Positions 6,152 through 59,200 of a DNA stretch of 64,000 bases are shown here, one piece after another (position 1 is the first letter of the stretch; every line of letters begins with the position of its first letter). The DNA is from Antedon mediterranea (lineage: Eukaryota; Echinodermata; Crinoidea; Comatulida; Antedonidae): positions 32,909,795-32,973,794 of the forward strand of contig NC_092670.1 in the NCBI RefSeq assembly GCF_964355755.1, written 5' to 3'. The notes beneath the pieces were generated by a model that saw only the letters and a list, made by a program, of their open reading frames with translations, did no database searches and had not been told where the DNA came from. Both the position numbers and the translations under genes were made by a program.

Positions 6152-6331
6152 TGCTAATAATAAGATCAATGTTAAGAAGAAGCACGTTTAGAGATTAACA
6201 ACATATTTATATATCAATGTTGAATATTAAATCGGTAACAACAAGAAATGTAACTATTATCAGTCCGTGGATATCAAATCGTCAACTGAACTCTCAGTCT
6301 CTTGATTTATACTTGGTAGTAAATTACACAC

Positions 6332-8922
6332 CTTCAACCATAATCAAGAAATTGCAGCTTCCACTATTTCTAGATGGATCCTTAACATCGAACACAAACC
6401 GGTGACTTCCAATCTCAAGAACAGCGGGAAATACATCTACTGGATCTGGAGAGATTTTCAATGGATTGTCTGAGTTGTCAGTTGCAATTATATCGGCTGA
6501 ATAATCAACAGTGGCCGTGAGTTTACCGAAATCAGTGACTACAGTAACATTTTCATTCGGACATGTCAAACTTGGCCTTTCCATATCTATGAAAACAAAA
6601 GAAAAATAAACAAATGACTTGATTTTAATACGGTGTATATCCATCCTAACAAAAAATATATTAGGTAGTATTTTACTATACCTTGAACCAATATTGTAAA
6701 ATTGCAGCTCCTTCTGTTATTAGAAGCATCCGTAACACTGAATAAAAACAAATGACTTGCAATCTCAAGAACAGCGGGAAATACATATACTGGATTTGGA
6801 TAGATTTTCAATGATTCGTCTGAGTTGTCGGTTGCACTAATATCGGTTGAATAGTCAACGGTGGCCGTTGGTTTACCGAAATCAGTGACGACAGTCAAAT
6901 TGTCAGCCGGGCATTTCAGAACAGGATCTTCCGTATCTATGAATGCAATTTATAATAAATGAAATTTAAACACATTATACGATGTATATATAAATCCAGT
7001 CTAGCAACAACAATACTAGGTAGTGTTTCACTGTACCTTCAACCAATATTGTAAAATTACAGCTCTCGTTATTGTTACAAGCATTCTTAACGTCGAATAC
7101 AAACAGGTGACGTCCAATCTCAAGAACAGCGGGAAATACATCTACTGGATTAAGAGAGATTTCCAATGGTTCGTCTGAGTTGTCAGTTGCAACAATGTCG
7201 GTTGAATAGTCAACAGTGGCAGTTGGTTTACCGAAATCAGTGCCTACAGTCAAATTGTCAGCCGGGCAGGTCAAAACAGGCTTTTCGAAATCTAAACAAA
7301 TTACAAATAATTCAGAGTTTGTCCGGTACGCCTATATGAAAGAAACACATTTTTTAAACGATTGACGTGGTAAAAATTAGCGGATTTGTTAGACGACAAA
7401 ATTAGTATGATAATTTTATGAATGGGTGTACTTACACTTTTCACATATAGCTATCCTATTATCGGAACATGATATATCATTCCAAGTACCATTTTTATTT
7501 TCCACTATAACAACACAATCTTCACCACCTGTTTTGTCGTTTGGTTCATAAGTAAGCCTATACCAATCTAAAGGATCGGATAGTGTTGAATAATAACTAG
7601 AGGATTTTGCGCTCAAATGTTGACTTTTAGTCCCACATATAAACTTTTGATGTTGAAAGGAAACTTCGTAGTAAGTACTGTTTATTTTGTATCTTATATA
7701 TCTTACTAGATGGATTAAAACGGCAAATAAAATATCTATATATAAGGATCTATAACTATAACGTTTGAAAATAATATTTTTGTTAAATATCTTATTTGAC
7801 TTTTCTGACGCAAAAAAAAATTATTTTACAAAATACATGCAACATACTTGTATAATTTAAACTGCTTCCTGACAACCATACAAATTCGCCTTCTGTTTTG
7901 ATGTCATTGTAGCCAATCCAAGCAGCGTTTGGCGTAGAATTTTCAGCAGCTTCAAGTCGTGCAAGTATCCACGAGTTTTCGTTTTCATTTGCAATTTCTA
8001 CCAAATCACCATTGAAACTCTGGCATGTATTTCTCATTGAATCCATTGTACCAACTGTACATGTAATCAAATAGCATTTAGTGGTTTCATCGTAATAGCT
8101 CCATCCATTTTGACACCCTGAAAATGGAATTGTTCTAATAGTTCTACATGACCCTACTATTTACCTACGAACATTACTATAGACTAGTCAGTATACATTC
8201 TTTTAAGAATTAGATAATACAGTAATACAAGTGACAACATGAGACTAAACCGTTTTTCGACCTAATAAAATACTATGTATCACAAACATATGCATCCCTT
8301 AAAAAGATAATTTCTTGGCACATATGAAGTTTCATACATGTAATACTAAACAATTTATACAAGGCCATATACATGGCTGCAGTCGCGTGCTCAAATTTGA
8401 GTTAGTGTTTACCGACCGACCAACCAACCGACATAGTGAGCTGTAGAATCGCGGGACTAAAAATGAAGACTGGTTGAACAACACAGACAAAAACAATAAT
8501 TACAGACATGGTGCAGGTCTAGTGAAAATATGTATTATTTAAAATTTAGAAGTAGTAGAATAAAAACTTTAATTTTCCTGTTTTAGATTTATCTTGCTGA
8601 TCGAAAAGCTTAGAAATTTGAAAATTAGTAGAGAATACATTTTTGTTTTATGCCTAAATTTTAGAAGCATTTTAAAAGTTTATAAAAAAGATACAGAATG
8701 GATTTTGGTTCAAACTTCACAAAAAATGTAAGTGACATTGTTGACAAGGTCTCACCTTTAGTTACACTAAACTAGGATTATAAATGCAATAAGACAAACG
8801 TTCGGAGGCATAGTGGGCTCCTAACATAACATTTAATAACCATTATTTCAAAACTCACCATCACAAATGACGTAATGTGTAACAAACAAAATTAGCAGTA
8901 ATATACGTCCTCTTGGTCCCAT
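6332..8922 (-). CDS. Secreted C-type lectin with three HYR domains
   Basis: Minus-strand exons: 8859-8922, 7848-8117, 7436-7567, 7037-7291, 6682-6936, 6332-6586. All junctions are GT-AG and phase 1. Exon 1 encodes a signal peptide (MGPRGRILLLILFVTHYVIC). Exons 2-3 form one C-type lectin domain with the calcium/sugar motifs EPN (YEPND) and WND (GTWND), which in this family favour mannose or GlcNAc-type ligands. The next three exons are each exactly 255 bp and each encode one HYR module, with TCPADN at the start, ATDNS in the middle and ESCNFTILVEG-like ends. About 410 residues are accounted for. No membrane segment is seen in them. A possible basic seventh exon lies at about 6,037-6,151, in phase, but the true 3' end is not clear. 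Likely a secreted recognition or adhesion protein. Function is inferred from domains. Confidence 0.85.
8363..8443 (+). repeat. Dispersed GACCGACC repeat, copy 2
   Basis: Same order of motifs as at 4,568: GGCCATATACATGGCTGCAG, CGCGTGCTC, GTTTACCGACCGACC, ATAGTGAGCTGTA. It lies in the first intron of the lectin-HYR gene. Confidence 0.7.
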
Positions 8923-10614: not shown

Positions 10615-10618
10615 AGTA
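10615..10618. repeat. Target-site duplication AGTA (left)
   Basis: AGTA precedes the left terminus CACGGC at 10,619. The same four bases follow the right terminus at 16,385-16,388. Confidence 0.65.
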
Positions 10619-10656
10619 CACGGCAGTTTCAAACGCGATATCCGAGACAAAAAGTG
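10619..10656 (+). repeat. Left TIR with RSS-like layout, 21-bp spacer
   Basis: CACGGCA (10,619-10,625), a spacer of 21 bp (10,626-10,646), then ACAAAAAGT (10,647-10,655). Shares CACGGCAGTTTC and GAGACAAAAAGTG with the right end. The middle is 9 bp longer here than on the right. Vertebrate RSS consensus is CACAGTG, 12 or 23 bp, ACAAAAACC. The CAC is kept and the nonamer agrees at 7 of 9 positions. Confidence 0.8.
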
Positions 10657-11279
10657 TTTACAACGCGCTTTTGATTGATACGCCTGGCGCGAGCCTTGAG
10701 CAGCTATTTATAGCCCACCAACATCGAGCGAAATGTTTACATTAGCTAGCTATAAACAGAGAGTGTATCATACGAAGTAAATACAGTCTTACAATGACAA
10801 ATTAATAAAGTTTTCCTCGAATCTTACAGTGTTTGCTTTATTATTGTATTTTGTATTAGGGAAAATTGTCTAGGATTAAAAAATATTATTAAAAAAGCGA
10901 AATTTTAACGATGTTTGCGATAGTTTCAAAAGCTGAAAATATACATAAATAGCGCCCTCACGGCGAAAGTTTATCGTCGCGGTAAGTTCAAGCTTTTGAT
11001 CGTCTGATAGCAAATCTCTGCAATTTTTTCGAGCAACACCGTTAATTCCAAGTGAAAGCGGAGACTTTATTCTTTATTTAGCTCAAAATTCAGGCTGACG
11101 TCTACTTTCAAATTGATTTGAGCTAAATTTGAAATTGACTTATTTCTGTTCAAAATTCCAGTGATTTTATAGGTAAAAATAGGCCTAGGGCAAAGTTAAT
11201 TATATATTTTTTAAAGAATTGTGTATTGGTTTTGCATTGACTGTATGTGGTATGTTACTGTTATTTATTGTCTTGTGAA

Positions 11280-14200
11280 ATGGAGTACCATACATATGCA
11301 TTGAGTAATTTATGTCGTGTATGTGGTGTCAAGTTAACACGAAATCAGCGAAAATTTGACCTAACTAAAGTAAAAGATAGCGTCCTGACATTTTTAAATA
11401 TCGATTTAACCCATGAAAACAAAGATGTACATCCACCATTCATTTGCAAGAACTGCCAATTTTCAAGCTATAACAAGGTTAGCACAACTCAAAGGTACAT
11501 CTGGAGACAACACACACAACAATCATGTTTCACATGTTATTTATTATCAGAACAGTCAAAACCAGGTAAGAGACTAAAACAAGTAAAACTCAACACATTA
11601 TTTTCTGAAACAGAATGTGACGTTATTCCATCAAAATTTACAGTCAATGACAAAATCAATTCTGAACCTTTCATTTGCCAAATATGCAACTCGATTTTGT
11701 CTTTCAACAGTCTTGAGTCAAACTGTTCACATCACTATTGTTCTAGTTGTATGTATAATTTGTTTAGTACCCTCCATGTTAACGTATGTTCATGTCTTGT
11801 GTGCGCAAAGCCAATGCACATGCTGGAATTTAAACCCGCCTCCCAAATTGTAATAGAGTCTCTAAAATCACTAGAATTACAATGCTCGTGCAATAAGTTC
11901 ATAAAATACTCTCAACATCAGAGACATATTTGTGAACACCAGACAACTAAAGAAGTGGTTTATCATAATGTTTCAAAAGCTGTATCAGTGTTAGAGAAAT
12001 CACTAGAAGATAGTCATGTCTCCCAAACAATACAAACGTTTGCAGAAAAAGTTGTTTACAATCAACTAAAGAAAAGTAAGGAAATGCTGATTGCAACAAA
12101 TGGTCGGGTGAGTGCTTTAAAACAAATTCTGTAATTATCATATTGCATGTTATAAAAAGTAGATTAATATTATTATAACAGAATTGTTAGCATAAAACAT
12201 ACAAATACAATTCCTATCTACAGCCAGCAAAGATTGCTATCATACCAAACACCAAAGTCTCAAGTGATAAGGCCAGTTCTCGAACTGTTTCAAGACGAGC
12301 AAATAGCATCAGCAGCATCATAAAATCAGTTGGCAATAGTGAGGCTGGTGATTTCCATCAAAAAGTGTACTCAGCCAAACATATGAGTCAAGCGGTCTTA
12401 AAAGCAGCCAACATAGCATCAACTTCGTCTATAGATACAGATAAGGCTCTGGCAATGGTGTCAGACTGCCATCTGGCATGGAACCAGCTACGAAAGCTAA
12501 GAAGGTAAACAAACAATTATGTGATTAAATAAAACCATGCATGAATACAGGCATTTTAGACACAGTCAAGTATGTCTAGTAATAAAGCGAGACTACATTA
12601 TTAATCCTTTTTATGTACTAGATATGTGGAGAAGGGGACAATACCATCAGAGAAAAGGATGCGGCAGCGGCAAAATGATCTCATTGGGGATTATTTTGAA
12701 TCCACAATGGAAATGCTATGTTTTAGGTCTGAGACGTCCCCAGACGGGATAGAATTAAGATCAACGCCTACTGTCAAACTGAAAAACATTAAAAAAGTTG
12801 TATTTTCATATCTTGATGAACACTCAAGGTACGCTGAAGTTAAATTTTAATATGTGCTTACAAAGTGTAGAACTTACTTTTTAGGACTTTACTTTTGTTC
12901 CTATGGATTTGCTATGGAAATAAAAGTTAAAAGAAATTAATTAAAAACTGAATTAATATTTACTAAATTTTTTTACAGACTGAACAACCTATCTCCCAAT
13001 AATAACGAGATTTGGATAAAGTTTGGCGGGGATAAGGGAGGTGGAAGTACCAAATTTGAGGTACAGATATGTAGCCTCGCCAAACCAAATTCAATTAACA
13101 ACATCATCGTCGTACTAATATTTGATGCCCCTGACATGATGTTTAATATTAACCGGACTCTTCCGGAAGTGGCCCACCAAGTTGTTGCTTTGAACGGGGA
13201 AAAATGGCGGTAAGAATACAACTAGTATATCAACTTAATTATGTGGATGCGTATACAAGTAATAAAATAAAAATATATGTATAATTTCTTTCAGCAATTA
13301 CACACTGAGAGTTTTCTGTTTTGGGGACTATGAGTATCTAACAAAACTCTATGGATTAAATGGACCAAATGGTAAACTATTAAATTATTTTATCATTATT
13401 TAATTTATACAAAATCTTTCTAAGCCAATTAAAAAAATGCTAAAATATGCAGTAATACAGTATAAATAAAATTTTTATTTATACTGTATTACTGCATATT
13501 TTAGCATTTTTAAACATTGTGAAAAAATTTGAATACTTTTAGCTCGATACTGCTGTCTCTTTTGTGAAAAACCAAAAGCAGAAATGCAATTAAAGGCACC
13601 ACCCGCCAAACAGCGATCATTGGCTTCAATCAGAGCCAACTATAGAATGTTTATGGAAGATGGCGGAATTGAAAGCCGATCTAAGGATGTTTCCATGAGC
13701 GTTGTTAATAATCCCTTAGTATCAATTGAGGTAGATCATGTAAGTACATCAGTTTTGTTTTTAATTATCTTTATATTAGAGAAACAAATGTACTTACTTC
13801 ATTATATGGCACTGTTGGTATTAAAATTTATATCTTTTAGGTGTCTGTTCCTAGCCTGCACTTGTCATTGGGCATATTCAAGAAGCTCTTTGATATGCTT
13901 GAGACGGAGGCGCACAGCATAGATTGCCTCATATATTCCCTAAGGAAAAATGGAGAACTTGATGACACTTCTGAATCAAAGTTTGATAAAATAATTCAAC
14001 ATCAGATCCAAACACAAATTGATATCAAAGAAAAGATTGAAGAAAAGAAATTAAAGTTGACTGAGATGGAGGATGCAATGCCATTAATCTATCTTAAAGG
14101 AAGTGTTGATGGTAGCATCATTACCAATGTGGGAAAGATAGTCAAATTGAGAGAAGAGATTGAGTCACTGGTAAGTTACTCAAACAATAAATGACATAGA

Positions 14201-15204
14201 TGCGTCTTGCCAGACACATACTCTAAAGACAAAACTTGTATTATATTTTATTTTACAGACAAAATGCATGGAAAATGGGCTTCCATTTGGAACGGGTCCA
14301 ATTGTCACATCACTGGAGCGTGTGCTACAAAAAAATCGCATCCAACGGCAAGCCTATCATGGTAAATCATTTATTGGTAACCATGTTCATAAATGTTGTC
14401 AGGTAAATTAACTATTCTTTTAATTGATATTGTTTCAACTGTTAATTATTAAAATTGTAGTTTTTAAAATGTATATTTGTTTTTAATAGGACCATGTTAG
14501 GAATGAACTAGTGAATGCTCCACTACATGAAATGAAAATTCAAGAAGCTGAGATTCCTATCGGAAAAATTCAGCTAATTGACAAAAGAGTAAAAGAATTG
14601 GTCACCAAGTACGATGCACTCCTTTCAAAATTTTCTAGGGTTCACAACAACTTGAATCATTCAAAACCTGTCACAGATGTTGATATTCAAGGAAATGGTA
14701 ATGTAATTATGCTTACCTTTCAAGGTATTCCTTAGACATGCCATTGTTTCTTTTCCTACAACACACTGCAACTGTTTCTTTTCTCTTCTACAAAAAAAAT
14801 TCAGATGAAGCCATAAAAGACTTTATGGAGGAATATCGAAAAACCAACAAAAGTATATCTCCAAAATTACATATGCTCGAGGAACATGTCATTCCCCAAT
14901 TAAAGGCTTGGAGATTTGGTCTGGGACTGGTTAGCGAGCAAGGTGGGGAGTCTATTCACGCCGCGCTTAATAAAAGGAAAAGAACAGTTGCTGGGATGCA
15001 TGACAGACTTGGACAGTTAACATCCATGATGCGGTCACATGCAATTACCACTCAGCCATGCATAATAGAAGAAATAGTTGAACCCAAAAGAAGAAAAATT
15101 GGTAACAATTTACACTTTATTGATTACACTATTTGTGCTTTTTAGCTCCCTGCTCACCAAAAATTAAATAAACCTGTTTATATTTTTCAGAAAAAGAAGA
15201 ATAA
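11280..15204 (+). CDS. RAG1-like transposase, 11 exons, 937 aa
   Basis: Exons: 11280-12107, 12224-12504, 12622-12828, 12979-13209, 13295-13371, 13543-13739, 13841-14170, 14259-14402, 14490-14697, 14805-15101, 15191-15204. They sum to 2,814 nt, in frame throughout, with GT-AG introns. I chose the ATG at 11,280 because it lies just before the first conserved cysteines; an in-frame ATG at 11,247 is possible. N-terminus: CRVCG (12-16), FLNIDL, HPPFICKNC (51-59), W..H....C..C (75-86). RING: C133, C136, C149, H151, C154, C157, C172, C175, then a ZFA-like C/H stretch to 220. An NGRP motif (274-277) sits where RAG1 has its GGRP nonamer-binding hook. Core: D457 in GGDKGG, D527 in FGDYEYL, C546/C549, H857/H862 and E883 in GGES. 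These parallel RAG1 D600, D708, C727/C730, H937/H942 and E962. Family knowledge: RAG1 and Transib proteins cut DNA at CAC ends by hairpin chemistry. Activity here is inferred. Confidence 0.88.
13433..13511. repeat. Perfect 39-bp palindrome in intron 5 of the RAG1-like gene
   Basis: Left arm 13,433-13,471, one-base centre, right arm 13,473-13,511, no mismatch found by eye. Core reads ATGCTAAAATATGCAGTAAT and its reverse complement. It ends 31 bp before the exon 6 acceptor, so an RNA hairpin would form close to the splice site. It may be a tiny palindromic MITE. Confidence 0.85.
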
Positions 15205-15314
15205 AGTACACGACAATGAATGCGAAATAAAAGAAAATATAGGCTTACTGATAAATCTGACGGAGTGCCATCTTCTTCTTTATTATGGATTCTCTTATGA
15301 ACCACACTTGCATC

Positions 15315-15320
15315 AATAAA
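15315..15320 (+). promoter_or_regulatory. Candidate polyadenylation signal AATAAA
   Basis: AATAAA lies 111 bp after the stop codon of the RAG1-like gene, inside the transposon, at a plausible distance for its 3' end. Confidence 0.5.
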
Positions 15321-16355
15321 GTAGTCGTACTTGTTTGTGTTGGTGGTATTTTTGGAACCTGTAGTACAATTTTTGAATTATAAATATTTATCATCATTAT
15401 TTAAAAAAATGGTGGACTAGCGATTGAAATACATGATGAAATATTATATTATAATTAGGACTATACTGTCAAAATTAAAATCAAAATTTTATTTTTTATT
15501 CTACAAATGCAATGCTGTTGCTGCCATAGTTTAGTAATATTCAAGCCATAGGAAGATAGACTATGATATTTTCACATTTTCTACTGTAGAATAACTTAGG
15601 CCCTCATGAAAGCTAGTTAGTAAGTATACCTATCCTCCTAGGCCTACCTATGTCTTGATGGTACCATATTAAAAAATTAGGCCTAGCCTAGCTAGATAGA
15701 GCTGTTACTAAAGCCTGGCCCTGCTGATTTCCCCTCTTAACGACATATACTTGGGCTAGGCCTACTAAGAGTATATTATTCTTATTCTAGGCCTAGGCCT
15801 ATACAGTATTTATTTTTCGTGGCTTAAACCTAGTACTAGGTGACAAACCTTTGTTAGGCCTAGGCCTTTAGCAGCACACCCACGTGTGCAAAACAGGCAA
15901 ATGGGCCCCGACTTTCTGTGTATATAATTATTAAACTGGATTAGACGTCAGCGAGATTTTTTAAATATTGTTTATCAAGTTTTTGAATTTTCACATCGAC
16001 TAGGCGCCGATGTTTATGTAAATTGCAAAAAAAATATATAACCTCACCATTACCCTGTAATTAAACTGCTATTTTTTACTGTTTTTTGTCGCAAAATAGA
16101 CGTAAGATTTCAATACTCATATCTCGTGAAGTCTTGAGAAACGGAGTGACCGCTGGCTTCGAATATCAATTACACGCCTTCTTCTTCGAATATAACATGA
16201 ATATTCATTAAATTTTCAATTATGACACTGTCTATTGGTCAGTTTATTCCCTCTCTTTTACCAGGGTATTAAAAATAGTCTTCCGGGTATTTAAACTAGC
16301 GCCCTCTATAACATAAAATAAGAAAAAGCGAGCATCGAAACTATAGAGGGCTCAC
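15321..16355. other. 3' non-coding part of the RAG1-like transposon
   Basis: No open frame of interest on either strand. Contains a cluster of TAGGCCTA/AGGCCTAGGCC motifs (about 15,600-15,870). The repeat AGCGCCCTCTATA near 16,294 is partly mirrored by CTATAGAGGGC near 16,341. Confidence 0.55.
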
Positions 16356-16384
16356 CACTTTTTGTCTCGCTGGAAACTGCCGTG
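16356..16384 (-). repeat. Right TIR with RSS-like layout, 12-bp spacer
   Basis: Read on the minus strand: CACGGCA (16,384-16,378), spacer of exactly 12 bp, then ACAAAAAGT (16,365-16,357). It matches the left TIR in its first 12 and last 13 bases. The two ends differ in the length between them. Confidence 0.8.
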
Positions 16385-16388
16385 AGTA
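16385..16388. repeat. Target-site duplication AGTA (right)
   Basis: AGTA directly follows the right terminus CCGTG. Following bases TCATTGTGTTA resemble the sequence after AGTA at the unoccupied paralogous site near 61,960 (read in reverse complement). Confidence 0.65.
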
Positions 16389-22006: not shown

Positions 22007-24469
22007 CTATAACTTAAGATAATGGTTTCTTCTTTCAAAAGCAAAGTAGACGTATTTTCCTAAATTATAAGTAAAATTTGTGTTGGAAAGTAATAAACAA
22101 AGCTTATTAATAGAAGGAAAAACACGAATAAATCTTGGAATAAAACTTTTTTTTAAATCATTGTAAAATGTGCATTGCAAAATAAAATGATATTCATCCT
22201 CAACAATGTTCTTTTTACATAATTTACACGTTCTCTTATATCTTTCTACACCCTCCCATCTGCCCTTTTCAATTTCTAGCTCTAATATCCCTAAACGTAA
22301 CTTAGTTAATAATCTTCTTTGTTTAAAATTAATGATGTTGGTCAAGTGATAACTTAAACATATTTCTTTTTTATAAAGAGAAAAGAGCCTTAACTTATTA
22401 TGTGAACTAAATTTTTGAATGCATTTTTGTTTTTCAATATCACATAAGCGCAACTTAAATTCTCTCAAAAATAAACCTTTACTATTAACATATTGTTGTA
22501 ACCATATATAACCAAAACCAGTAGAAAAGAGTAAGTGTTTGACCTGTTGTGCCCAACAATTCTCATTACGGTTAACTTTTCTAAGTTGAAATTCATAACA
22601 CTTAAAAATGAATCTGTCATGATCTAAAGTAATAATATGTAACCAAAATCTTATAACTGTAACTAAACAATCCACAGAAAGTGGTAATCTACCTAACTCA
22701 GAAGTAACAGCGGCATTTGGTGCATTTTTTCCAACTTGCAATAAATATCTACAAAATTTAGTATGTGTTTTTTCTATAATGTTTGTGCTATCTGACATTC
22801 CCCAGATTTCGCTTCCATACGTTAAAATAGGAAGTATTTTCACATCAAAAATATGGTTCCATGTATTAATTGGAAGAAAAGATAAGTTACGATAAATGAA
22901 TGATTTTAAGCAGAATAAACTTTGATTTGCTTTTTGTTGATTATGTTGCATTGAGTTGTTCCATGCACCATTTGAACTAAAAATAACACCAAGATAATTA
23001 TACGAATTAACAATTTTTAATTGAATATTTTTATACTTCCATTTTTCAATGTTCCTTAAATTGCGGCCATTTTTAAAAACCATAATTTTGGATTTTGTAG
23101 TGTTTACAGTAAGTTTCCAAGTATCACAATAAAGTTCAAGTTTATTTATTAATTTTTGGAGACCTTTCACCGTATCACTAACAAGCACTAAGTCATCTGC
23201 ATAAAGAAGATGATTCATATGACAATCTCCAATTTGAATGAAATCGTTTACCTGATTAAGTATACCACTCAAATCATTAATGTAAATATTAAAGAGTAAA
23301 GACGACAACGGAGAACCTTGTTGTACTCCAATCGAACAATTAAAAGATGGACTAAGTTTGTTGCCAATTTTAACATGAGCAGATAAGTTTTGGTATAAGG
23401 AATTTATTATGTGTAACATTCTGCCTGAAACACCGATACATTTCAACTTATGTAGTAAAAGTGTATGATTTATAGAGTCAAAGGCACGTTTAAGATCAAC
23501 AAAACAAACAAAAATCCTACCCCGCTTTTTATCTAAGTATTTAGAGATGAGGGTATCTAAAATGAATATATTATCTGTCGTTCTATATCCCTTACGAAAG
23601 CCTGCTTGTTCCTCATGAATTAACTTTTTACTATTTGTAAATTGTGTTAACCTAGAATTAAGAATATTTAAAAATATTTTTCCTAGGATTGGAATTAAAG
23701 AAATACCTCTATAATTTTCAGGTTTGTTTTTATCTCCATTTTTAAAAATTGGAACGATTAAGCTTGTTGCCCATTGTTTGGGAAATTTTTCAACTAGAAA
23801 TATGGCGTTAAAAAGAATTTTTAAATAATCAAAAATAATGTTGGGGGCGTTTAGCAAAAATTCAAAATTCATTCCATCAATGCCGGGAGCTTTTCCACTA
23901 TTTTGAGAATTAAATGCTTTTTTTATTTCATCCAACGTTATGTCGTGGTCTAAATTATCATCGTCTTCATTCTGTTGGCATTCTGTGATTTTTGGCAACT
24001 CAGCGCTACCAATAGACTCATCGTTTTTAAATAGGTTCTTAAAATGAATATAACATTGATTAATAGAAAGTTCGCAAGATAATTTCTGTTTTGTCTTCAA
24101 CTTCATCCAAAACGTTTTGCTATCCTTTGTATTGAGTGAATCGATAATTTGTTTGCGTATTCTTTTATGAAAGTTATTTTTTTTGCATTTTAATAGCGAT
24201 TTATATTGCTTTTTTATCTGAATATAATTATTTAAAAAAGGTTGAGTGCGCATAATTCTAAATCTCTTTAATGATTGTTTAACCTGCATTTTAAGGTTCT
24301 TACAATCTTTATCAAACCATTCGTTTCGTTTTGTAGAAGTTGAAGATTTACTTGTTTGTGTATACTTAATTCCTTTACATACGTATTCAAAAATTTTACA
24401 TAAATGTGAAACTGCCTCACATTTATGTAAAATTTTTGAAAAGTGCATCATTAAAACTGCATTTGACAT
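22007..24469 (-). CDS. LINE ORF2 fragment: reverse transcriptase plus C-terminal zinc knuckle
   Basis: An uninterrupted 820-codon frame. Residues 1-130 are the charged linker after the missing endonuclease. The RT palm carries KAPGIDGMNFEFL, ENYRGISLIP, FVDLKRAFDSI, GVQQGSPLSSLLFNIYINDL and the catalytic LLYADDLVLVS. A thumb-like region follows with YNYLGVIFS and LTYGSEIWG. The C-terminus has a CKLC...EDEYHFILQC zinc-binding motif typical of several animal LINE clades. The apurinic endonuclease domain is absent, so the copy is dead on arrival despite its open frame. The first residues, up to about 35, come from the inverted 5' junction and are not native. The clade is uncertain. Confidence 0.8.
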   Translation of the reverse strand: MSNAVLMMHFSKILHKCEAVSHLCKIFEYVCKGIKYTQTSKSSTSTKRNEWFDKDCKNLKMQVKQSLKRFRIMRTQPFLNNYIQIKKQYKSLLKCKKNNFHKRIRKQIIDSLNTKDSKTFWMKLKTKQKLSCELSINQCYIHFKNLFKNDESIGSAELPKITECQQNEDDDNLDHDITLDEIKKAFNSQNSGKAPGIDGMNFEFLLNAPNIIFDYLKILFNAIFLVEKFPKQWATSLIVPIFKNGDKNKPENYRGISLIPILGKIFLNILNSRLTQFTNSKKLIHEEQAGFRKGYRTTDNIFILDTLISKYLDKKRGRIFVCFVDLKRAFDSINHTLLLHKLKCIGVSGRMLHIINSLYQNLSAHVKIGNKLSPSFNCSIGVQQGSPLSSLLFNIYINDLSGILNQVNDFIQIGDCHMNHLLYADDLVLVSDTVKGLQKLINKLELYCDTWKLTVNTTKSKIMVFKNGRNLRNIEKWKYKNIQLKIVNSYNYLGVIFSSNGAWNNSMQHNQQKANQSLFCLKSFIYRNLSFLPINTWNHIFDVKILPILTYGSEIWGMSDSTNIIEKTHTKFCRYLLQVGKNAPNAAVTSELGRLPLSVDCLVTVIRFWLHIITLDHDRFIFKCYEFQLRKVNRNENCWAQQVKHLLFSTGFGYIWLQQYVNSKGLFLREFKLRLCDIEKQKCIQKFSSHNKLRLFSLYKKEICLSYHLTNIINFKQRRLLTKLRLGILELEIEKGRWEGVERYKRTCKLCKKNIVEDEYHFILQCTFYNDLKKSFIPRFIRVFPSINKLCLLLSNTNFTYNLGKYVYFAFERRNHYLKL
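24386..24440. repeat. Perfect 24-bp inverted repeat at the LINE 5' junction
   Basis: TTCAAAAATTTTACATAAAT plus GTGA, a 7-base spacer AACTGCC, then the exact reverse complement. It marks where the LINE copy folds back on itself at its 5' end. Confidence 0.8.
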
Positions 24470-24944
24470 ATTAAAAATAATTTAAAAAGAAATAAATATT
24501 ATACATTACATGGTTAAACCATTACATGGACGTATAATTACATCTCGTCTTCTTATAACGAACACTATAGGCCTACCAAGCAGCATGTTGCGAACATGTG
24601 CATGGGGGAGGGCCATAAGAAAGCTTTACATTTCACACATGCATTGTATACGGTCAAACCTTCTCACCCGCCGCTGAAAAAGGGGCCGTTTTGACCTGGT
24701 ATTTCGTGTGCTAATCGAGTCGAATGCAGTTTTAATGATGCACTCTTGGCGTTCCATATCTGTTCGTTTGTTCGTGTCGACACATTCAGTATCAAATGTC
24801 AAATGGCGATATTTCTGTATTTTTTCAATCAATTGCTTGCTTGCGAGTATTAGGCCTATATAAGGTATGGTTTAATTAAAGATCTTTGGTTATGTTCGGC
24901 TTCGGGATGTTATACCATACTTAGGCCTAGGCTAGGCTATTATA

Positions 24945-33044: not shown

Positions 33045-34790
33045 AATAATAATATTTATTCGGTCATGAATGTAAAAATAACCAGGAATGAGAATAGGCT
33101 AAAGCCCAAACAGATTCTGCACTCACTCCATACAATACAATCAGTTAAAGATAAAACCATATACAAGAAAAATACAAATAAATTATACATAACATGAAAT
33201 ATAGTGTTTTGTTAGAGCAGCCTTAAATATTGAAATTGTTTGTGAATCTTTTATGTCATTTGGTATTTGCTCCCATAGTCTAGGAAAGGAAACAAATACA
33301 GAATTATGAAAAGTATTGCCTTTCGAATTCCAACGTAAAAGCCTACCCCGACATCTTTTACTAGTTTTAATATACTCATTGAAAGAATGGGGACAGTAAC
33401 CTTTCAACACCTTAAATCCTAATGAAAGTCTATGTAATTTAAACAAGTCATCAATAGATAATAATTCAAGCAATTTCAACCTATGAAAATAAGATGTGTC
33501 CCAGGAACCTTCCTTTCTAAACATTATTATCCTTGTTGCTTTCCTTTGTATACTTTCTATTCTATTAATATATGATTTCTCAAATGGTGCCCACATTGAA
33601 CAACAGTAGGTAACCACTGGAAGTAATAGAGCTTTGTATAAGTTCAACATAGCTAACCAGGACATATTTTTACTACATTTTGAAATGAAACCAAGCAATC
33701 TGCTTGCTTTACAACATATATAATTAACTTGTGTATGACAAGACAACGAACTATTTACATAAACACCTAGAAATTTGAATTCTGTAACTTTAGGAATATT
33801 GTCTGATTCTATGGTATAATCCCAGTTAACTATCTCTTTACATCTTGTAACATGCATTACGGCGCATTTGACAGGATTTAAGGGAAGTTTGTTTACATTT
33901 GCCCATTTAGCAATTAAATCTAAATCCTTTTGAAGCAATTTACAATCATTATTGTTATAAATAGGACGTGATAATGTGTGATCATCAGCAAATTGAAAAA
34001 GTGAAGAAGAAATATTATTTACAATATCACTTACATAAATCAAAAATAAAAGAGGGCCCAAAACTGACCCTTGTGGTACCCCTGAAGTAACATTTACCCA
34101 CTCTGACTTTTCTCCTCTGTAAATAACCCTTTGGCGTCTATTTGAAAGACAATCTGTAATCCATGCATTAGTGTTTCCACCAATGCCACAGTTATTAAGT
34201 TTCTTAATTAATCTTTTATGAGACACCTTATCAAATGCAGACGAAAAATCAAGAAAAATAATATCAATATTTTTACAACCTTTAAGTTCTAAGCTCTGTG
34301 CCCATGAATGAAAAACCTTTGAAAGTAAAAGTTCAGTACTATACATTTGTCTAAACCCAAACTGATTTTCTGAAAGGATATTATTATATTCTAGATATTC
34401 CCTTAAGCGATAACAAAAGCAATTTCTCAATAATCTTACAAATTATGGGAGTTAAGGACACTGGACGATAGCTTTTCATTTCGTCTTTGGGGTTTCCATT
34501 TCTTTTGAAAATAGGTACAACATTTGCATCCTTCCATTGTTTTGGTAAAATACCTTTTTGTAAAGTTAAATTAAAGAATGTACATAAAACATTAGACAAT
34601 TGTGTGTTACATGACTTTAAGAATATTGGAAGCAAACAATCAGGTCCTGGTAATTTGGATACATTTAACTGTGAGAGGGCATAAAATACCTCAGGCATCA
34701 CAAAGGGTTCACATTCAAAGTTGGTAAGACAATCTATTGTATCCAAATCACAATGCTGATCATTATCTATGCAAAAGTTGTTTACAAATT
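33045..34790 (-). mobile_element. LINE fragment, Jockey/CR1-like
   Basis: Minus-strand LINE ending in an AAT/TAT-repeat tail (about 33,045-33,062). The reverse transcriptase is present in two overlapping frames. The 5' end is truncated within the region before RT. Confidence 0.7.
33183..34746 (-). pseudogene. LINE reverse transcriptase with one frameshift
   Basis: The upstream frame (34,746-34,384) carries KLPGPDCLLPIFL, KQWKDANVVPIF and MKSYRPVSLTPIICKIIEKL. It shifts into the second frame (34,430-33,183) with ENQFGFR, IIFLDFSSAFDKVSHKRL, SGVPQGSVLGPLLFLIYVSD and the catalytic FQFADDHTL. A C-terminal region of the usual LINE type follows (FLGVYVNSSLSCHTQ, LLPVVTYCCSMWAP). The catalytic FADD box and surrounding motifs are intact. 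The frame break is near 34,400. Confidence 0.75.
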
Positions 34791-36390
34791 GTGTATTGAT
34801 AAACTCTGCATAGCAATTAATCTTATACTATTTTACTTATATAATACTAATGATTTCATCCCTAAATGAAAAATTCAAATTCAAAGCCACTAAAACAAAA
34901 ATGGAAACATAAATTAGATTTCATTTTATAACTTATCTTATAATAATGTGTTTGTTTTGTTTTTAAGTTGTTATGTGCTGCGTTGTATTATTATAGAACA
35001 AAATAATATGTATGTATGTAATGAAAATGTACAGTGCAGTATTCATTTTTATTCTCTCTGTATTTTTGTTTAATGTTTAACACGAAGTTTATGATCATGA
35101 TACAAGGTAATCAAAGCAAGGCAATCTAACAACAGGACACTGAGCTCGACTTTCCTAGATAGGAACAGTCCTATGATCTTAAGTCTAGCTGCGACAAATA
35201 CCAACAGTACTGTACTATGTACTGTAAAGGGGCGTGAAACTGATCGCGTCTCAGCCATAAATAAACCATTTGATCTCCGGAGCTCAAAAACATAACAAGT
35301 TTATACTTGAAAGTTGTTACAAGCAAATATTGTATAGAGCGCTATAACAGTACTTATATCATGCCAATTTCTTAGATAACCTACTATGATACCTTTTGAT
35401 TATTATTTCAAAGTATTGTCTAGGTGCAAATCAAAATTGGATTGCTTAATTAATGAAATGCTTTGGATGAAAGAGTTTAAACCGTCTCTTAACAAACAAA
35501 AATCAATCAAAGCCAAATGTAATGTCTTTGACTAAACTAATTGTTTAAGGTATTTCCTGTCACCATTTGATGCTTTGTATTTTGCGTAGTTGTACATTTT
35601 ACTCATTTGTTTTTGAGAATGGTTCAGAAACGTCGATCTTTTTGTCATTAAATTTTATTTTCAAATTCCAAATTTTATTTTCATAATTATTAGGAAGATT
35701 AACCTATTACACATTAGTTGTAATAGTTCTACTTGTACTGATTATTTTGCCATTAAACATAATAAAAACATTGACCGTAAATAGACCACATTGACATTTT
35801 AAAAGTAGATTTACCAAATGTGTTGTAATGTTAACATTCTAACGAGTGAGATATGATGTCATTCGGTGCATTTTTTAGCAGAGTGCCAATATAAGTGCGT
35901 CAAGGTCAATTTACACCGACGAGCGGTAAAGGTAAACGGAAAACCGCGTAGCTTGTCACATTCACACAGCCCGCGGAATTCGCAATCAGTGTTGTGGAAA
36001 GTAGGTGTGCTTGTAGGCCTGGAGACTAGTGTATGGCACGCCAGGACGGACAAAACGATTTCAAATGCCAATCCCTAGCTGTTGAGTTTACAAATCCCTA
36101 CTAGTCGAGATCGACTAGACACATACCTATCGGTCGAGTTTACCACATAGCACTAGTAGTTAATGACAAACTATACACATCACTAATAGTCGAGATTTAC
36201 ACATCGCGCTACCGGTCGAGTTTTAAACACACATCGCTACCGGTCGAGTCGAGGTTGTTCATCACATGTTGAGAATTATTTTAGTAGACATGCGCAATAA
36301 GGGTTTGTAGAACGCCACCAACGTTCAGAAAAGTTAAATATATTTGTTGCGCCCAGACAAAACCCAAAGTAGGATCATTTTGGTGTTCGC
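34791..36390. other. Intergenic, nothing recognised
   Basis: No supported exon. Around 36,080-36,250 a short theme (ACTAGTCGAGAT, ACCGGTCGAGTT, with ACACATC) recurs four to five times at irregular spacing. Confidence 0.4.
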
Positions 36391-51190: not shown

Positions 51191-52126
51191 CTTCAACTTT
51201 TATTGTAAAACTGCAGCTCTCTCTGTTATCATAAGAGTCGGTTACATTGAACACAAACAGGTGCCTTCCAATCGCAAGAATAGCGGGAAATACATCTGTT
51301 GGATTCGGAAAGATTTCCAAAAGTGTTTTCGAGTTGTCAGTTGCAATAATATCGGCTGAATAGTCAACGGTGGCCGTGGGTTTATTGAAATGAGTTAGTA
51401 TCAAATTGTCCGACGGACATGTCAAAACAGGCTTTTCGATATCTATGGAAAATTGATCAATCTGTTATGTTCTTGTAAACAAATGGAGACATCATAATGA
51501 TGTATCCGTACGTGACGATAGTGTTTCACTAAATATAGACAATTATTGTAAAACTCAAGCTCCCTTATTGACACAAACATATGTCTTACATACTTACACA
51601 TTTCACATATAGCTACAAAATGAATTTCACAGTTGCAATCATTCCAACTTTGTCCATTTCGAAGCAAAGCCACGCAATCTTCGTTATTGTCCCAATTGTT
51701 TGGTTCATTGAAATTCCAATCTAAATGATCAATAAAACTATAAAACAAACAAGCAACATCGTCATCGTCGCCGTCGTCAACGTCGTTGTCGTTATCATCG
51801 TCGTCATCGTCATTACCATCATCATCATCAGGAACTTTTAGATTTTCACGTCGACTATGTCAACTGATACCCTATGACGTCATCAAAATATAATTATGCG
51901 CATGCATACTGCCAAATTTAAGAACTTGTTCAATGGCATTTTTCCGTTCGCTCGTGAAGCGATTGAAGTATGACGTGATAACACTGAACAAGTTTATCAA
52001 ACTCACCATCACCATCATCGTCATGTATCGCCGTGCTTAAAATAAAACGAGGCGCATTTGGGCTAGGAAGGTTGTGACAGTAACTCCATTACGGGGATAT
52101 AATAATGTACACACACACACACACAC

Positions 52127-52216
<90 letters not shown>

Positions 52217-53225
52217 TGATTGTGAGGGCGTTTGTTGTATGAGAGAATGTATCTGGTGGGTGAAAATCTGTGATAATACCATACATGGCTCTGTGGTCTA
52301 GTGGTATGATACTCGCCCTGTAAGCGAGAGGTTGCAGGTTCGAATCCAGCCAGAGACATTTTTTCATACAACTACAAAATACGGAACTTTCGCCAATGAG
52401 CTATGCTCGACGCGATTATTAGATCATGTTCCGAATATGAGCACTGTTTCTATAATTTACAGTATGATTTATATATAATTTACACAGTGCTACGCAACAT
52501 CATTGATTTACATATACACAATATTATTTAAAAACCGTTGCGAATTAAAGTTGGAATTTATTCTGACTTGTTAAGCCTCCACTGATTGTGAGGGCGTTTG
52601 TTGTATGAGAGAATGTATCTGGTGGGTGAAAATCTGTGATAATACCATACATGGCTCTGTGGTCTAGTGGTATGATACTCGCCCTGTAAGCGAGAGGTTG
52701 CAGGTTCGAATCCAGCCAGAGACATTTTTTCATACAACTAAAAAATACGGAACTTTCGCCAATGAGCTATGCTCGACGCGATTATGAGATCATGTTCCGA
52801 ATATGAGCACTGTTTCTATGATTTATATATAATTTACACAGTGCTACGCAACATCATTGATTTACATATACACAATATTATTTAAAAACCGTTGCGAATT
52901 AAAGTTGGAATTTATTCTGACTTGTTAAGCCTCCACTGATTGTGTGGGCGTTTGTTGTATGAGAGAATGTATCTGGTGGGTGATAATCTGTGATAATACC
53001 ATACATGGCTCTGTGGTCTAGTGGTATGATACTCGCCCTGTAAGCGAGAGGTTGCAGGTTCGAATCCAGCCAGAGACATTTTTTCATACAACTAAAAAAT
53101 ACGGAACTTTCGCCAATGAGCTATGCTCGACGCGATTATGAGATCATGTTCCGAATATGGGCACTGTTTCTATAATTTACAGTATGATTTATATATAATT
53201 TACACAGTGCTACGCAACATCATTG

Positions 53226-53275
<50 letters not shown>

Positions 53276-56200
53276 CCATAGGCCTACTTGTATAGTTCGA
53301 CTTGCTTCCTGACAACCACTCAAATGTTCCTTCTCTCTCTAAATCAGTGTATCCAATCCAAGCATCGGTTAGTGAATTCACGATAATCAACTGGTTATAT
53401 ATCCACAATTCTTCGCGTGCACTGGAAATTTCAACCAAATTCCCACTAAAATTATGGCATACATCTCTCCCGGAATTCCACGTACCAGGTTCAACGGTGA
53501 GATGGTAGCATTTTAAAAACTGAGAGCTATAGTGCCATCCAGGTGGACACCCTACAAACAAAATGTATTCATACTATTGTGTATTGCGAACAAATACATT
53601 TGCCTACAGTCTACTGTAGGCTTAATTCTATTCAATAAAAATGCGAATTATTAGGGCGAATTAAATAAGAATAAGATGTTACTAGAGGGTGAGCTCGCTT
53701 CGGTCGCTCATCCTCTAGTAAGTGTAGACGATGTATATCATAATTTCAATTAAAAACCTCACAGAAGGACGTTCTGGCCTATGTCAGTTTTTGCCATCTC
53801 CGGTGGTCGGTTGCCATATAATTATTGAAATACTTCTATTCGTAAAATAAAATTTATATCTCAGTTCCTTAGATTGAGATGATGAATATAACATTTTAAA
53901 ATGCCATGTTTATTATTAAGGGGAAGTAGCAGGGACCTATCTAATTTGTAAGTCCATTGTTGTTGTAGTAAAAATAATATGCATTCTCCCAGATATAACC
54001 AAATACAGCATCGTAATTAATATAATCAAGAAGTGATAACACAGTAAACAATTGTATTAAAATGCTTGTTAAATTGTAGATATAGCAGTAAATGAATTCT
54101 ACTACAAATAGAATTGTGTCATAATTACAATATTGTGAGTAGAATATATGTGACGGGTCGATTATTCTGTATTAGAGGTGGAGGTTGAATATTTCAAATT
54201 ATGTTTTATGGGGGAGGGGCGATTCAAATAAACGCGGTGGGCCAAATTGGTATTAGCAATACCTTATTTAGTTGTTTGTTTTATTTTCGATTTCTTACAT
54301 ATTAATCTTATATACTGATTTTACTATATACTCCGATGATTTTTGAATAGGCCTATATTTGATTTGAACGTTATTATCTTTGCAGTATAAATTTGTTTTG
54401 CAAATTTTACCCGTCGCCGTCAAAGGTGTAGATCTGTACAACAGTTTTTGCATTTTGTCTCCCTATTTTAGAATTAAGCATAATTTTATAGATAAATTTA
54501 TATATAGATGTACATTGATCAACTGTACTCTACTTTAAATGTGATACAATGCCTTAAAATGTCCCAGACTTCGTATCAGTTTCATTCCCTTTAAAATATA
54601 AAAATTCGCACCCAATTTTAATCCTACGTACAGCTGTGTAGACCTAACAGTTATTTCAACAACGAAATAGATGTTATCCATTTCTATATTAGATGCCCGT
54701 GTATACTTAATAACCATAAACATTGTCACATATGTTCTGTTAATATGCTAATTATATTTGTTTGTTATTTGCAAATTATGCAAACTACGTTACGCTCGGT
54801 GAAGTAATAAAAACAGTAGTTGAATTAAAAGAACCGTGTTGACGAGTCACACTTGTAATATGGTGTCAGAATAGTGGAAATTCACTCAAAATGGAATCGT
54901 TGAAATTTAAGCCGCCTCCACCCTTCGATTTTGATGGTCCTAGTGTGTCTGCTGCTTGGAAAAGGTGGAAACAGAGATTTACATTCTTTCTGAAAGCGAC
55001 TGGCAGTGCACGTAAAAGTGGTGAAATAAAGGTAGCAATTTTAATTACTACACTGGAAGGGCGTGGCTTAGATATTTACAACAACTTTACGTTCACTGAT
55101 CTTGTAGGCGAACCGGGTCAGGAAGATTATGTCCCAGTAGAGGACAATAATGATTTTGATACAGTAATGTCAAAGTATGATGAATACTGTAATAAACGGG
55201 ACCCGATAATGGCGTTACGAGCGCAATATTGGCAATATGAACGACCCGAAGGTCAGGGTTTGGATGAGTTTGTGAATGACTTAAGAACAATGGCGGTGAA
55301 TTGTAAATTTGTGGATCAAGACGGTACGATTCGTGATAAGCTTTTCTTCAGTGTAACAAATCCAGTGATGAAAATGAAAGTTATGGGCGATGATGGCAAC
55401 GCTACACTTGATACTGTGATACACCGAATGAGAACTTTTGAGAGTTCTAGACGCGAGCTTGAAATGGCCGGTGTTGCAAGTGATTATAAGCCGAAGGTTC
55501 ATGCATTGAGAAGAACCAAATCACATAAACAGACGCCAAGGGTTAGTGGTCAACAGAATCATCAGTTTACGGATGCAGCCAAAATTAAATGTAGCAGGTG
55601 CGGTTCTTCACATCTACCTCGTCAGTGTCCAGCTTATGGTAAAACATGCTACGGGTGTAAGGGTTTGAATCATTTTCAGTCTGTGTGCACCAAACGTTTT
55701 TCCCGAGGACGCGGTCGTGGACGTGGAAGAGCTGTACATACAATGGATGAACAGTATATTATTGCCGAAGGTGTAAGTGATCCTAATGACTTATACATTG
55801 ACACTTTAACTGTTAAAGATAAAAATGAGTACTTTTATATTGACACTCTAAGAGATAATGATGACAAGAACGCTTGGTTCTATGATGTGTTTGTGGGAGG
55901 TAATGTGTTAAAGATGAAGCTTGACACAGGAGCAGGTGTTAACTGCATACCACTGGAAACATTTAGAAAGTTACCAGGACATAAGAACATTAAAGTATAT
56001 CATTCTAAAACTAACCTATATAGTTATAGTGATGAAATTGTAAAACATATTGGTAAAGTTACTCTAAATGTAAAAGTTGATAACATCCAAAATGATTATG
56101 ACTTCTTTATTACTAATGTTGATGGTCCACCTATACTTGGATTGAAAGCCTGTAGGGAGCTTGGTCTGATCAAACGTGGTAACAATATGATGTGTAGTGA

Positions 56201-59200
56201 TAATGTGATAAATAATAAATATGTACATGCACTAACTAAAGATTCTTTGATTCGAGAGAATCGTGATGTATTTACAGGTTTAGGTAAATATCAAAAGTAA
56301 ATTAGACACGATATATCACATTCTCATAAATAAATAATATTACTTTTCCTTAAACATAAATTGTTTCTTAGATCACATTCATATGTTTCAAATTGTTTCT
56401 TAGATCACATTCATATGTTTCAAATTGTTTCTTAGATCACATTCATATGTTTCATACATTATAGGATGGTTTGAAAATAAACATAAAATGAAGTTAATTA
56501 TTGATACATTTATTTATAATCCAATCGATCCGGTGGACGACTAACACGATCGTGTAAATATCAAGATCCTTATGACATCAAGTTGAAAAGTGGTGTTTCT
56601 CCAGTAGTCCATCCACCCCGCAGGGTGCCACTTAGTCTGCATACCAAGCTGAAAGAAAAACTTGACGATATGGAGAAGAGGGGCGTGATTAAACGGACCG
56701 ACAAACCAACAGATTGGGTCAACAGCCTAGTGATAGTGGAGAAACGAGACGGATCCTTGAGGTTGTGTTTGGATCCACGTGATTTGAACAAAGCCATTAG
56801 ACGTGAACATCATATGATACCGACCGGTAAGGACGTAGTGAGTCAGCTGTCAGGTAAAACACTTTTCACTGTCTTTGACCAGAAAGATGCGTACTGGCAA
56901 GTTCCTCTTACTGACGCTAGCGCAGATATATGTACATTCAATACTCCTTTTGGACGATACAGTTTTCTAAGAATGCCATTTGGTATCTGCAGTGCTAGTG
57001 AGGTGCTACAGAAACGAAACCAGCAAATATTTGGTCATATACCTAACGTACACATAATATCTGATGATATGATTATAGCTACAGGTAGTGAAGCAGAGCA
57101 TAATGCAACAGTACAGAGGGTGAACAATGCCAAATTCAATGGAAGCAAGCTTAAGTATAAACAGTCTGAATTGGTGTTCATGGGAAACGTGGTGAGTGCC
57201 GATGGACAGAAACCAGACGAAGAAAAGGTTAGAGTTATCAAAGAAATGCCTGACCCACAATGTAAATCTGACTTGCAACGTATAATGGGGATGCTTAATT
57301 ATCTGTCACAATTCATACCTAATATGTCCAATGTGAGTGCACCTCTCCGGGAATTGCTCAAGAAAGATGTTGCGTGGTTTTGGGGTCCAGAACAAGCAGA
57401 ATCCCTGAGGCAGTTAAAGGCGTTGATTAGTAGCAAACCAGTCTTAAGTTTCTTTGATCCACAGAAGCCAACCATTATCCAATGTGATGCATCATCCACA
57501 GGGCTCGGAAGCTGTTTGCTTCAAGAGGGTCATCCGGTTGCGTTTGCCTCTAGGTCGTTAACATCAGCTGAAGTTAATTACTCACAAATTGAGAAGGAGA
57601 TGTTGGCGATCTGCTTTTCTATACACAAATACCACCAATATGTATATGGCCGAGCTGTTGAAGTTCACACTGACCATAAACCACTCGAAACAATCACACG
57701 TAAACCACTCCATAAAGCTAGTCCTAGAATACAACAAATGCTGCTCAAATTGATAAAGTATGAGCTTGATGTTAAGTATGTTCCTGGAAAGTACATGTAC
57801 ATAGCTGATGCTCTCAGCAGAGCATATCCTGATAAGGTTGATCGTGATGCCCAACCCCTTGAACAGTTGAAATATAGGGTGCATAGTCTAGACGAAATAT
57901 TGCCCATGAGTAAAGCAAAAATTGAAGAAGCAATACGAGCTACACATGCAGATGTGATACTCCAAACTCTAATTCTAACATGCAAAAGCGGGTGGCCTAA
58001 ACATAGATGGGGTGCACCGGAGCAAGTTAGGCAGTATTGGCATCTTCGTGATGAGATACATGAAATTGATGGTCTTGTGTTTTTAGGTGAGAAGTTGATT
58101 GTTCCTAGCCAAATGAGAGCAGATATGCTGAATAAAATTCATGAAAGTCACCTTGGGATGGAGAAGTGTAAGGCGAGGGCCAGGTCTATTTTGTATTGGC
58201 CAGGTATGACCAACGATATAGAATCAGTAGTGTCAAGGTGCCCTGTTTGTGTAAAGTTCATGCGTAGAAATCAACGGGAGCCGATGATTCCACATAAGGT
58301 TCCTATGAGACCATGGGCTAAGCTGGGCGCGGATATATTTACATTCGCTGGCAGAGATCATCTTATTGTAGTTGACTATTTTTCCAAATACCCGGAAGTA
58401 GTGACACTCACTAGCAAAACGGCTGGAGAAATCATCAAAAAATTGAAATCTATATTCTCAAGACATGGCATCCCTGAAATATTAATGACGGATAACATGC
58501 CGTTCGCCAGCTACGAGTTCAAACAGTTTGCTAACCAGTGGGGGTTCGATTTAGTGACGTCCAGTCCGACATATGCCAGAAGTAATGGGCAAGTTGAACG
58601 TTTCGTCCAAACCATTAAGCAACTCATGAGGAAGTCCGTTGATGAGGGAAGCGATTTTCATCTTGCTCTACTAGACTATCGTGATTCACCTATTGCAGGG
58701 TTGAATTGTTCTCCTGCTCAGTTGTTGATGAGCAGAAAGTTAAGGTCAACACTTCCAGTCACACATACATTGCTGCAACCACAAGTTATTGTCGGAGCTA
58801 GAGATTTCCTTCAGTCACGTCAACAGTCTATGACAAAATATTATGATCGTGGTACACGTGTATTGACGAAACTAAGAAAAGGGGACAACGTGAGAATATT
58901 GAAAGGACGGCAATGGGAACCTGCTGTTGTGGCTAATGAACATGAGCTACCCCGTTCATATGTAGTGATGACCGAAGATGGAACGTCGTACAGACGGAAT
59001 CGACAACATTTATTAAACACTCAACAACCGGATACTTTGCAGAAGGGCGTACCAACTTTGCAGAAGGTACCGGAAGCACCACCCTTACGTAGAAGTGATC
59101 GTGTTAGTCGTCCACCGGATCGATTGGATTATAAATAAATGTATCAATAATTAACTTCATTTTATGTTTATTTTCAAACCATCCTATAATGTATGAAACA

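Follow-up and report, generated by a model that had tools for sequence, protein, structure and literature searches.

Which kind of mobile element carries the N-terminal zinc modules of the recombinase RAG1, and does such an element belong to the lineage from which RAG1 was assembled? The question is raised by a unit of 5,766 bp at positions 10619-16384 of the window, by which we mean the whole stretch of 64,000 nucleotides of Antedon mediterranea contig NC_092670.1 analysed here. A preceding interpretation made from the letters alone (the sequence-only reading) had described this unit as a transposon with a full-length RAG1-like gene and no RAG2, possibly a distinct branch of RAG-type elements. 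Our analysis points, with a probability of roughly 0.93, to an autonomous and recently mobile Chapaev DNA transposon of the kind in which a Chapa module is followed by a RING domain, for which Kapitonov and Jurka 2007 is reportedly the reference.

Structure of the element and its gene

The transposon is intact and has CAC...GTG terminal inverted repeats: CACGGCAGTTTC opens it at 10619, and the complement of the same block closes it at 16384. A second block of 14 bp, CGAGACAAAAAGTG, is common to both ends without mismatch, and AGTA flanks the element on either side (10615-10618 and 16385-16388) as a target site duplication (TSD). Exact occurrences of both blocks within the window are confined to the two ends. 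When mismatches were allowed, the window held nine matches to the 14-mer against 6.72 expected (three mismatches) and four to the 12-mer against 1.85 expected (two mismatches), both ends counted in each case; away from the two ends, such matches are near chance.

The element contains a single gene of 11 exons, with GT..AG borders at all introns, which reads through 937 residues without an internal stop, and a purpose-written spliced protein-to-genome aligner recovered the same exons. Ten further loci of the same genome were aligned to the window protein. The relative L064, identical in 394 of 946 columns (42%), has no stop, and its 10 introns agree with those of the window gene in both residue and phase; of these 10 introns L065 and L067 have 8 each and L070 has 9 in common with the window gene. 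L065 and L070 each show one frameshift, and stops, frameshifts or both are found in L062, L063, L066, L068, L069 and L071; some of these disruptions may be introns that were read through by the aligner. Judged by its open exon chain and the introns kept in L064, the gene model is real, and the spliced 937-residue protein proposed in the sequence-only reading holds up. A RAG2-like protein is not encoded, as had been proposed too, because the longest stop-to-stop frame of the element besides the exon frames has 88 residues and lies inside exon 1 in another frame, and no frame longer than 82 residues exists before exon 1 or after exon 10 (no family scan was made of such frames). The features of the element are as follows, L055 to L057 being further copies described below.

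10615..10618, no strand: left target site duplication, AGTA
10619..10656, plus strand: long form of the terminal inverted repeat at the 5' end, with 12 bp between CACGGCAGTTTC and CGAGACAAAAAGTG
10647..10655, plus strand: A-rich 9-mer ACAAAAAGT, separated by 21 bp from the seven bases at the 5' tip; L055-L057 have ACACAAAGT instead
11280..12107, plus strand: exon 1, encoding the pre-RING cysteine module and RING with the zinc region behind it (about residues 131-225)
12224..12504, plus strand: exon 2, the GRP motif (residues 275-277) spanning exons 1 and 2
12622..12828, plus strand: exon 3
12979..13209, plus strand: exon 4, in the DUF1280 region, with D457 (codon at 13031) as the likely first catalytic Asp
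13295..13371, plus strand: exon 5, with D527 (codon at 13326) as the likely second catalytic Asp
13433..13511, no strand: perfect 39-bp inverted repeat in intron 5, the window copy having 44 bp there that are absent in L055-L057
13543..13739, plus strand: exon 6, C(2)C motif C546/C549
13841..14170, plus strand: exon 7, LH motif L613/H614
14259..14402, plus strand: exon 8
14490..14697, plus strand: exon 9
14805..15101, plus strand: exon 10, H(4)H motif H857/H862, likely catalytic Glu E883 (codon at 14948)
15191..15204, plus strand: exon 11 with the stop codon
16356..16384, minus strand: short form of the terminal inverted repeat at the 3' end, with 3 bp between CACGGCAGTTTC and CGAGACAAAAAGTG
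16357..16365, minus strand: A-rich 9-mer ACAAAAAGT, separated by 12 bp from the seven bases at the 3' tip
16385..16388, no strand: right target site duplication, AGTA

Copies and recent mobility

The genome that holds the window (354 Mb in 18 contigs) was searched for further copies. The left 102 bases have four matches at 98-100%, the window among them. Three further full-length copies end at identical bases and show perfect TSDs of their own, ATCT in L055 (whose insertion sits in a simple repeat), GACC in L056 and GTGC in L057. Compared with the window copy, these three carry 13, 17 and 37 substitutions and 50, 56 and 73 gap columns, respectively, with no gaps within the coding part; the ratios of nonsynonymous to synonymous changes (2/2, 2/2 and 8/6) comprise too few changes to measure constraint. 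The 44 bp by which the window copy differs in intron 5 are mostly the reverse complement of the neighbouring sequence and give rise to the inverted repeat listed above.

Unoccupied target sites were found by joining the flanks of a copy minus one TSD. For L056, at least seven such places match at 98-100% over 300 bases among the 27 matches listed, and for L057 at least 13 match at 97-100% along 299 or 300 bases and others are more diverged, among 41 matches listed and with 40 of 107 candidates scored. Four more copies, L058-L061, lie on contig 2 (about 30.87-31.32 Mb); they are partly masked, have a mutual identity of 99.9-100% wherever letters are given, and two of them show an identical right flank; the cluster likely consists of segmental duplicates. 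In all seven other near-identical copies the frame is kept wherever letters are given (in L060 from residue 180 and in L061 from residue 276). The element is thus more than a chance arrangement, since it has three further copies, empty sites, kept frames and an intron match in L064, and it is recently mobile. The intact 5.77-kb unit with matched ends and a 4-bp duplication, which the sequence-only reading had described, is confirmed by the exact ends, by AGTA on both sides and by the copies with the same ends, and the count of copies that it had called for yields three full-length ones with TSDs of their own, two of them with empty sites.

These data also bear on the idea that the host has domesticated a Chapaev transposase as a gene of its own. 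The intact frame would agree with domestication, as would a number of substitutions too small to reveal constraint, but several copies have intact ends, their own TSDs and empty sites. Because of this evidence for mobility the idea is refuted as it stands, and we give it a negligible probability.

The transposase core and Chapaev membership

A Pfam scan of the window protein assigned residues 300-510 to DUF1280 (PF06918; E 6.4e-18, with 65.6 bits where the cut-off is 25). The same family was found in all five family members scanned and has at least 53 matches genome-wide, the element copies included. According to the available part of PMC3985635, DUF1280 represents the transposases of Chapaev elements and shares with RAG1 the small clade II of the RNase H-like superfamily. 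As hallmarks of Chapaev, the accessible text of PMC4079192 gives a TSD of 3-4 bp, 5'-CAC/GTG-3' termini and the motifs C(2)C, LH and H(4)H. In the window protein these motifs are present as C546/C549, L613/H614 and H857/H862 and, like the likely catalytic triad D457, D527 and E883, they are invariant in the five aligned members. The TSD is 4 bp long in six of six elements, the fifth base differing in each (AGTA, ATCT, GACC and GTGC, and in relatives GTCC and TCCT), and CAC/GTG tips within inverted repeats are found in the window, in the three copies and in the relatives, although for the relatives the scan itself required 4 bp and CAC/GTG. All Chapaev hallmarks tested here are therefore present at the level of sequence. 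The ends of L062, L063, L065 and L067-L071 were not found in the stretches examined, which were partly too short or masked; an end candidate of L063 was dropped, as it agreed in only 11 of 16 repeat bases and 3 of 4 TSD bases.

Kapitonov and Koonin presented in 2015 two Chapaev subgroups in which RING follows Chapa, and they treat Chapaev as a remote clade within the Transib superfamily (PMC4411706, as far as available to us). Since Chapaev elements with Chapa and RING are thus in print, neither the domain order nor its bearing on the assembly of RAG1 is new. With these transposons the element shares the DUF1280-type DDE core, the C(2)C, LH and H(4)H motifs, CAC/GTG ends, a 4-bp TSD and a zinc module followed by RING, an order recognised here through RAG1 matches of the pre-RING and RING regions and not through a Chapa profile itself. 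No difference at the protein level is demonstrable; what sets the element apart is a fixed asymmetry of its ends (21-23 versus 11-13 bp), which is unmentioned for Chapaev in the available portion of PMC4411706. Several points weigh against the Chapaev assignment. It is based on Pfam family, motifs, TSD and termini; the gene is predicted from genomic DNA; the similarity of the core to RAG1 is not significant; and a structure prediction for exon 1 was uninformative (mean predicted local distance difference test score, pLDDT, 34.5).

RAG1 likeness of the N-terminus and the core

In a PDB search with a full-length profile of five members, RAG1 ranked first (E 6e-6) through RING and the following zinc region (positions 130-222), and with the single window sequence RAG1 was found at E 0.0015. 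Other RING proteins follow close behind (LNX at 7e-5), and for this reason the match of the RING region alone is modestly specific. The pre-RING module by itself (six sequences) also had RAG1 as its first PDB match (21wb_A, E 0.001, the next other protein at 0.021), with the cysteine pairs in register with this chain. Pfam RAG1_imp_bd matched residues 1-102 of L064 with E 1.9e-4 (21.6 bits, just under the cut-off of 23.3) and the N-terminal part of the window protein with E 0.0086, and is unlisted for the whole window protein. Between RING and core, where RAG1 has GGRPR, all five aligned members have GRP at residues 275-277; in L066, which is outside that alignment, the position is modelled as GRV, probably on account of an unmodelled intron. 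GGRPR is a motif of the nonamer-binding domain of RAG1.

The core behaves differently. PF12940 is not among the Pfam matches of the window protein at E up to 1, and the core alone (six sequences) retrieved no RAG1 chain from PDB with E values of up to 10 allowed. Searches for RAG1-like genes elsewhere in the genome gave no match, but they had no positive control and carry no weight. The top-scoring local alignment with the complete mouse RAG1 core had a score of 20.3 against a shuffled mean of 18.1, and 12 of 60 shuffles scored as high. This alignment keeps C(2)C and LH in register, and a second, collinear one does so for H(4)H and Glu. Spacings in the element and in mouse RAG1 are 19 and 19 from Asp to Cys, 5 and 5 from His to His, and 21 and 20 from His to Glu, while the first and second Asp are 70 residues apart in the element and 108 in mouse RAG1. 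Core fragments preselected by an earlier RAG1 alignment did better, with 2 of 100 and 0 of 100 shuffles as good, but because these fragments had already been picked for aligning, we relied on the whole-core comparison. The weak core segments would fit the published distant kinship with RAG1, a kinship that the present tests do not establish. The collinearity with RAG1 that the sequence-only reading had assumed for the entire protein thus stands for the pre-RING cysteine module and the RING/zinc region and is not supported for the core, which is not recognisably RAG1-like by sequence; a RAG-type DDE core was rejected on the basis of the DUF1280 assignment, the missing RAG1 chain and the shuffles.

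Could the element nevertheless be a RAG-like (ProtoRAG or RAGL) or Transib element from which RAG2 was lost or always absent, and hence a distinct RAG1 branch? The RAG1-like pre-RING module and RING would be expected of such an element, and the spacings from Asp to Cys, His to His and His to Glu as well as the weak collinear segments with motifs in register are also compatible with it. These observations are opposed by the DUF1280 core with PF12940 unlisted, by a core that finds no RAG1 chain and aligns no better than shuffles, by the deviating distance between the first two Asp residues, and by TSDs of 4 bp in six of six elements, where RAG, Transib and RAGL elements typically have 5 bp (PMC7204232). 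We consider this origin very improbable, and the distinct branch joining a RAG1 N-terminus to a RAG core had to be given up, given the TSD length and the Chapaev elements with Chapa and RING known since 2015.

Vertebrate RAG1 resembles the Chapaev element in the order of zinc module, RING, GRP motif and a DDE core that contains C(2)C and H(4)H, and the distance from tip to A-rich block in the element is near 23/12; unlike RAG1, the element has a core unrecognisable as RAG1 by sequence, no RAG2, a TSD of 4 instead of 5 bp, 11 exons and the shorter spacing of the first two Asp (70 against 108). ProtoRAG and RAGL elements are likewise transposons with RAG1-type N-terminal zinc modules and CAC tips, and ProtoRAG has unequal ends as well, but they differ from the element, which has no RAG2-like gene, a 4-bp TSD, another core family and a spacing near 23/12 and not the 27/31 of ProtoRAG (PMC8355894, in the part available). 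Transib elements share the CAC tips and the C(2)C and H(3-4)H motifs (PMC12730594, available in part), and some have 12/23 ends, an asymmetry that outside RAG is known only from them according to the accessible part of PMC8355894; the same part describes Transib as having 5-bp TSDs and no RAG1 N-terminus, and its core family is different. The N-RAG-TP element of Aplysia, described there as entirely RAG1 N-terminal-like, also contains such sequence inside a transposon, whereas the Chapaev element has a full transposase core; this comparison is by description only. Because the element is intact, present in multiple copies and has recently moved, the role of a RAG1-type N-terminus in transposition should be directly assayable.

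Unequal ends with a 23/12-like spacing

In the window element, ACAAAAAGT is spaced 21 bp (5' end) and 12 bp (3' end) from the first seven bases and agrees with the nonamer consensus of the recombination signal sequence (RSS) at 7 of 9 positions; the commoner left 9-mer of the window family, ACACAAAGT (5' end of L055, L056 and L057), agrees at 6 of 9. With the frame fixed on AAGT, the spacers are 22/11 in L064 and 23/13 in L066, and the spacer letters have diverged. Across these three related families, the distance from the CAC tip to the A-rich block is thus 21-23 bp at the 5' end and 11-13 bp at the 3' end, with a match to the RSS consensus of 4-5 of 7 for the heptamer and 3-7 of 9 for the nonamer. 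RSS-like ends, another element of the sequence-only reading, are therefore retained in the sense of a CAC tip and an A-rich block with these spacers.

Genome-wide, the tip CACRGCWGTTTC followed by AAGTR gave 53 matches against 4 in a reversed control, with lengths of 28-30 in 18 cases, 38-40 in 22 and others in 13 (25 in three; 31, 34 and 42 in one each; 50 in seven, six of which are one other repeat). This other repeat (G000 C1:26780382 and five more places) has the tip CACGGCAGTTTC and consists of six near-identical rows; behind the tip it is unrelated to the element. The tip CACRGCTGTTCC gave 47 matches (control 1), 46 of them of length 30, and a pattern without the A-rich block gave 146 (control 0); among the 100 of these listed, 51 have 37 bases and 49 have 47. 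Neighbouring convergent ends formed 10 pairs in the CACRGCWGTTTC search and 37 among the 100 listed matches of the block-free pattern. All 47 pairs combine one long with one short end, the remaining ends being without a partner among the matches listed. In addition, all 12 gene-bearing elements for which the long end was located have it on the 5' side, 0.6 to 8.2 kb from an exon, these pairs of long end and exon having been chosen by hand from the 53 DUF1280 matches and the matches of the CACRGCWGTTTC search. As copies of one family are not independent, the 47 pairs represent three related families with sub-variants and not 47 events. The difference in length between the ends firmly amounts to about one helical turn; that the absolute values come close to 23/12 is no more than suggestive.

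Some of the end pairs are closely spaced. Those of the L064 type are only 2.3-2.8 kb apart at G000 C2:11881650-11883933 and four similar places, and 16 of the 37 pairs of the L066 type are spaced 3.7-3.8 kb; both are probably non-autonomous derivatives. L072-L074, which belong to the 3.7-kb class, show at about 554-1474 a mutual match shifted by about 470 bp (90-93%), as for an internal tandem duplication.

The single gene product of the Chapaev element would be a DDE transposase able to recognise both of its unequal ends, to excise the element and to reinsert it with a 4-bp stagger. By analogy with RAG1, the RING and zinc modules might serve as dimerisation or ubiquitin-ligase parts, and GRP (residues 275-277) might contact the A-rich block as a counterpart of GGRPR in the nonamer-binding domain; synapsis would then join one long with one short end. 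Whether the spacing has a function can be weighed on the same data. Unequal ends occur in many transposons, and a historical insertion or deletion without function, coincidentally near 23/12, would account for a difference seen in only three families (with sub-variants), all of them related, with a modest match to the RSS consensus. Such an event does not readily explain why a difference of 9-11 bp was kept while spacer letters diverged and each end drifted by 1-2 bp, nor the long/short composition of 47 of 47 pairs, nor the constant position of the long end on the 5' side of the gene; we give it about an even chance. More tentatively, and with a probability that we regard as rather low, RING-bearing Chapaev elements could have a working 12/23-type rule, in which a GRP-bearing transposase with a RAG1-type N-terminus prefers synapsis of a long (21-23) with a short (11-13) end. 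If this were true, the RAG1 N-terminus, the reading of an A-tract and a rule of unequal ends would predate RAG2 and V(D)J recombination and would be shared by the wider Chapaev/Transib/RAG group. A functional asymmetry would represent a 12/23-like rule outside RAG and Transib, and the likeness of the ends to the signals cut by RAG1 could make a part of the origin of RAG1 testable. In the literature searched, which was available in part, we found no statement on spacing or asymmetry of Chapaev ends; an earlier description in the 2007 Repbase Reports is possible.

Other features of the window

The remainder of the window contains several further frames, all named by eye. A retrotransposon-like pair of gag and pol frames (485 and 872 residues) is located at 54843-59138 on the plus strand. 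Reverse-transcriptase-like frames of the long interspersed nuclear element (LINE) type, of 824 residues and shorter, are found on the minus strand at 22007-24481 and 33183-34827, and HYR-like and C-type-lectin-like exon frames on the same strand at 6324-8160 and 51443-53573; taken with the noncoding sequence, these exon frames would suit a marine deuterostome. The noncoding sequence of the window is, also by eye, rich in GGCCTA.

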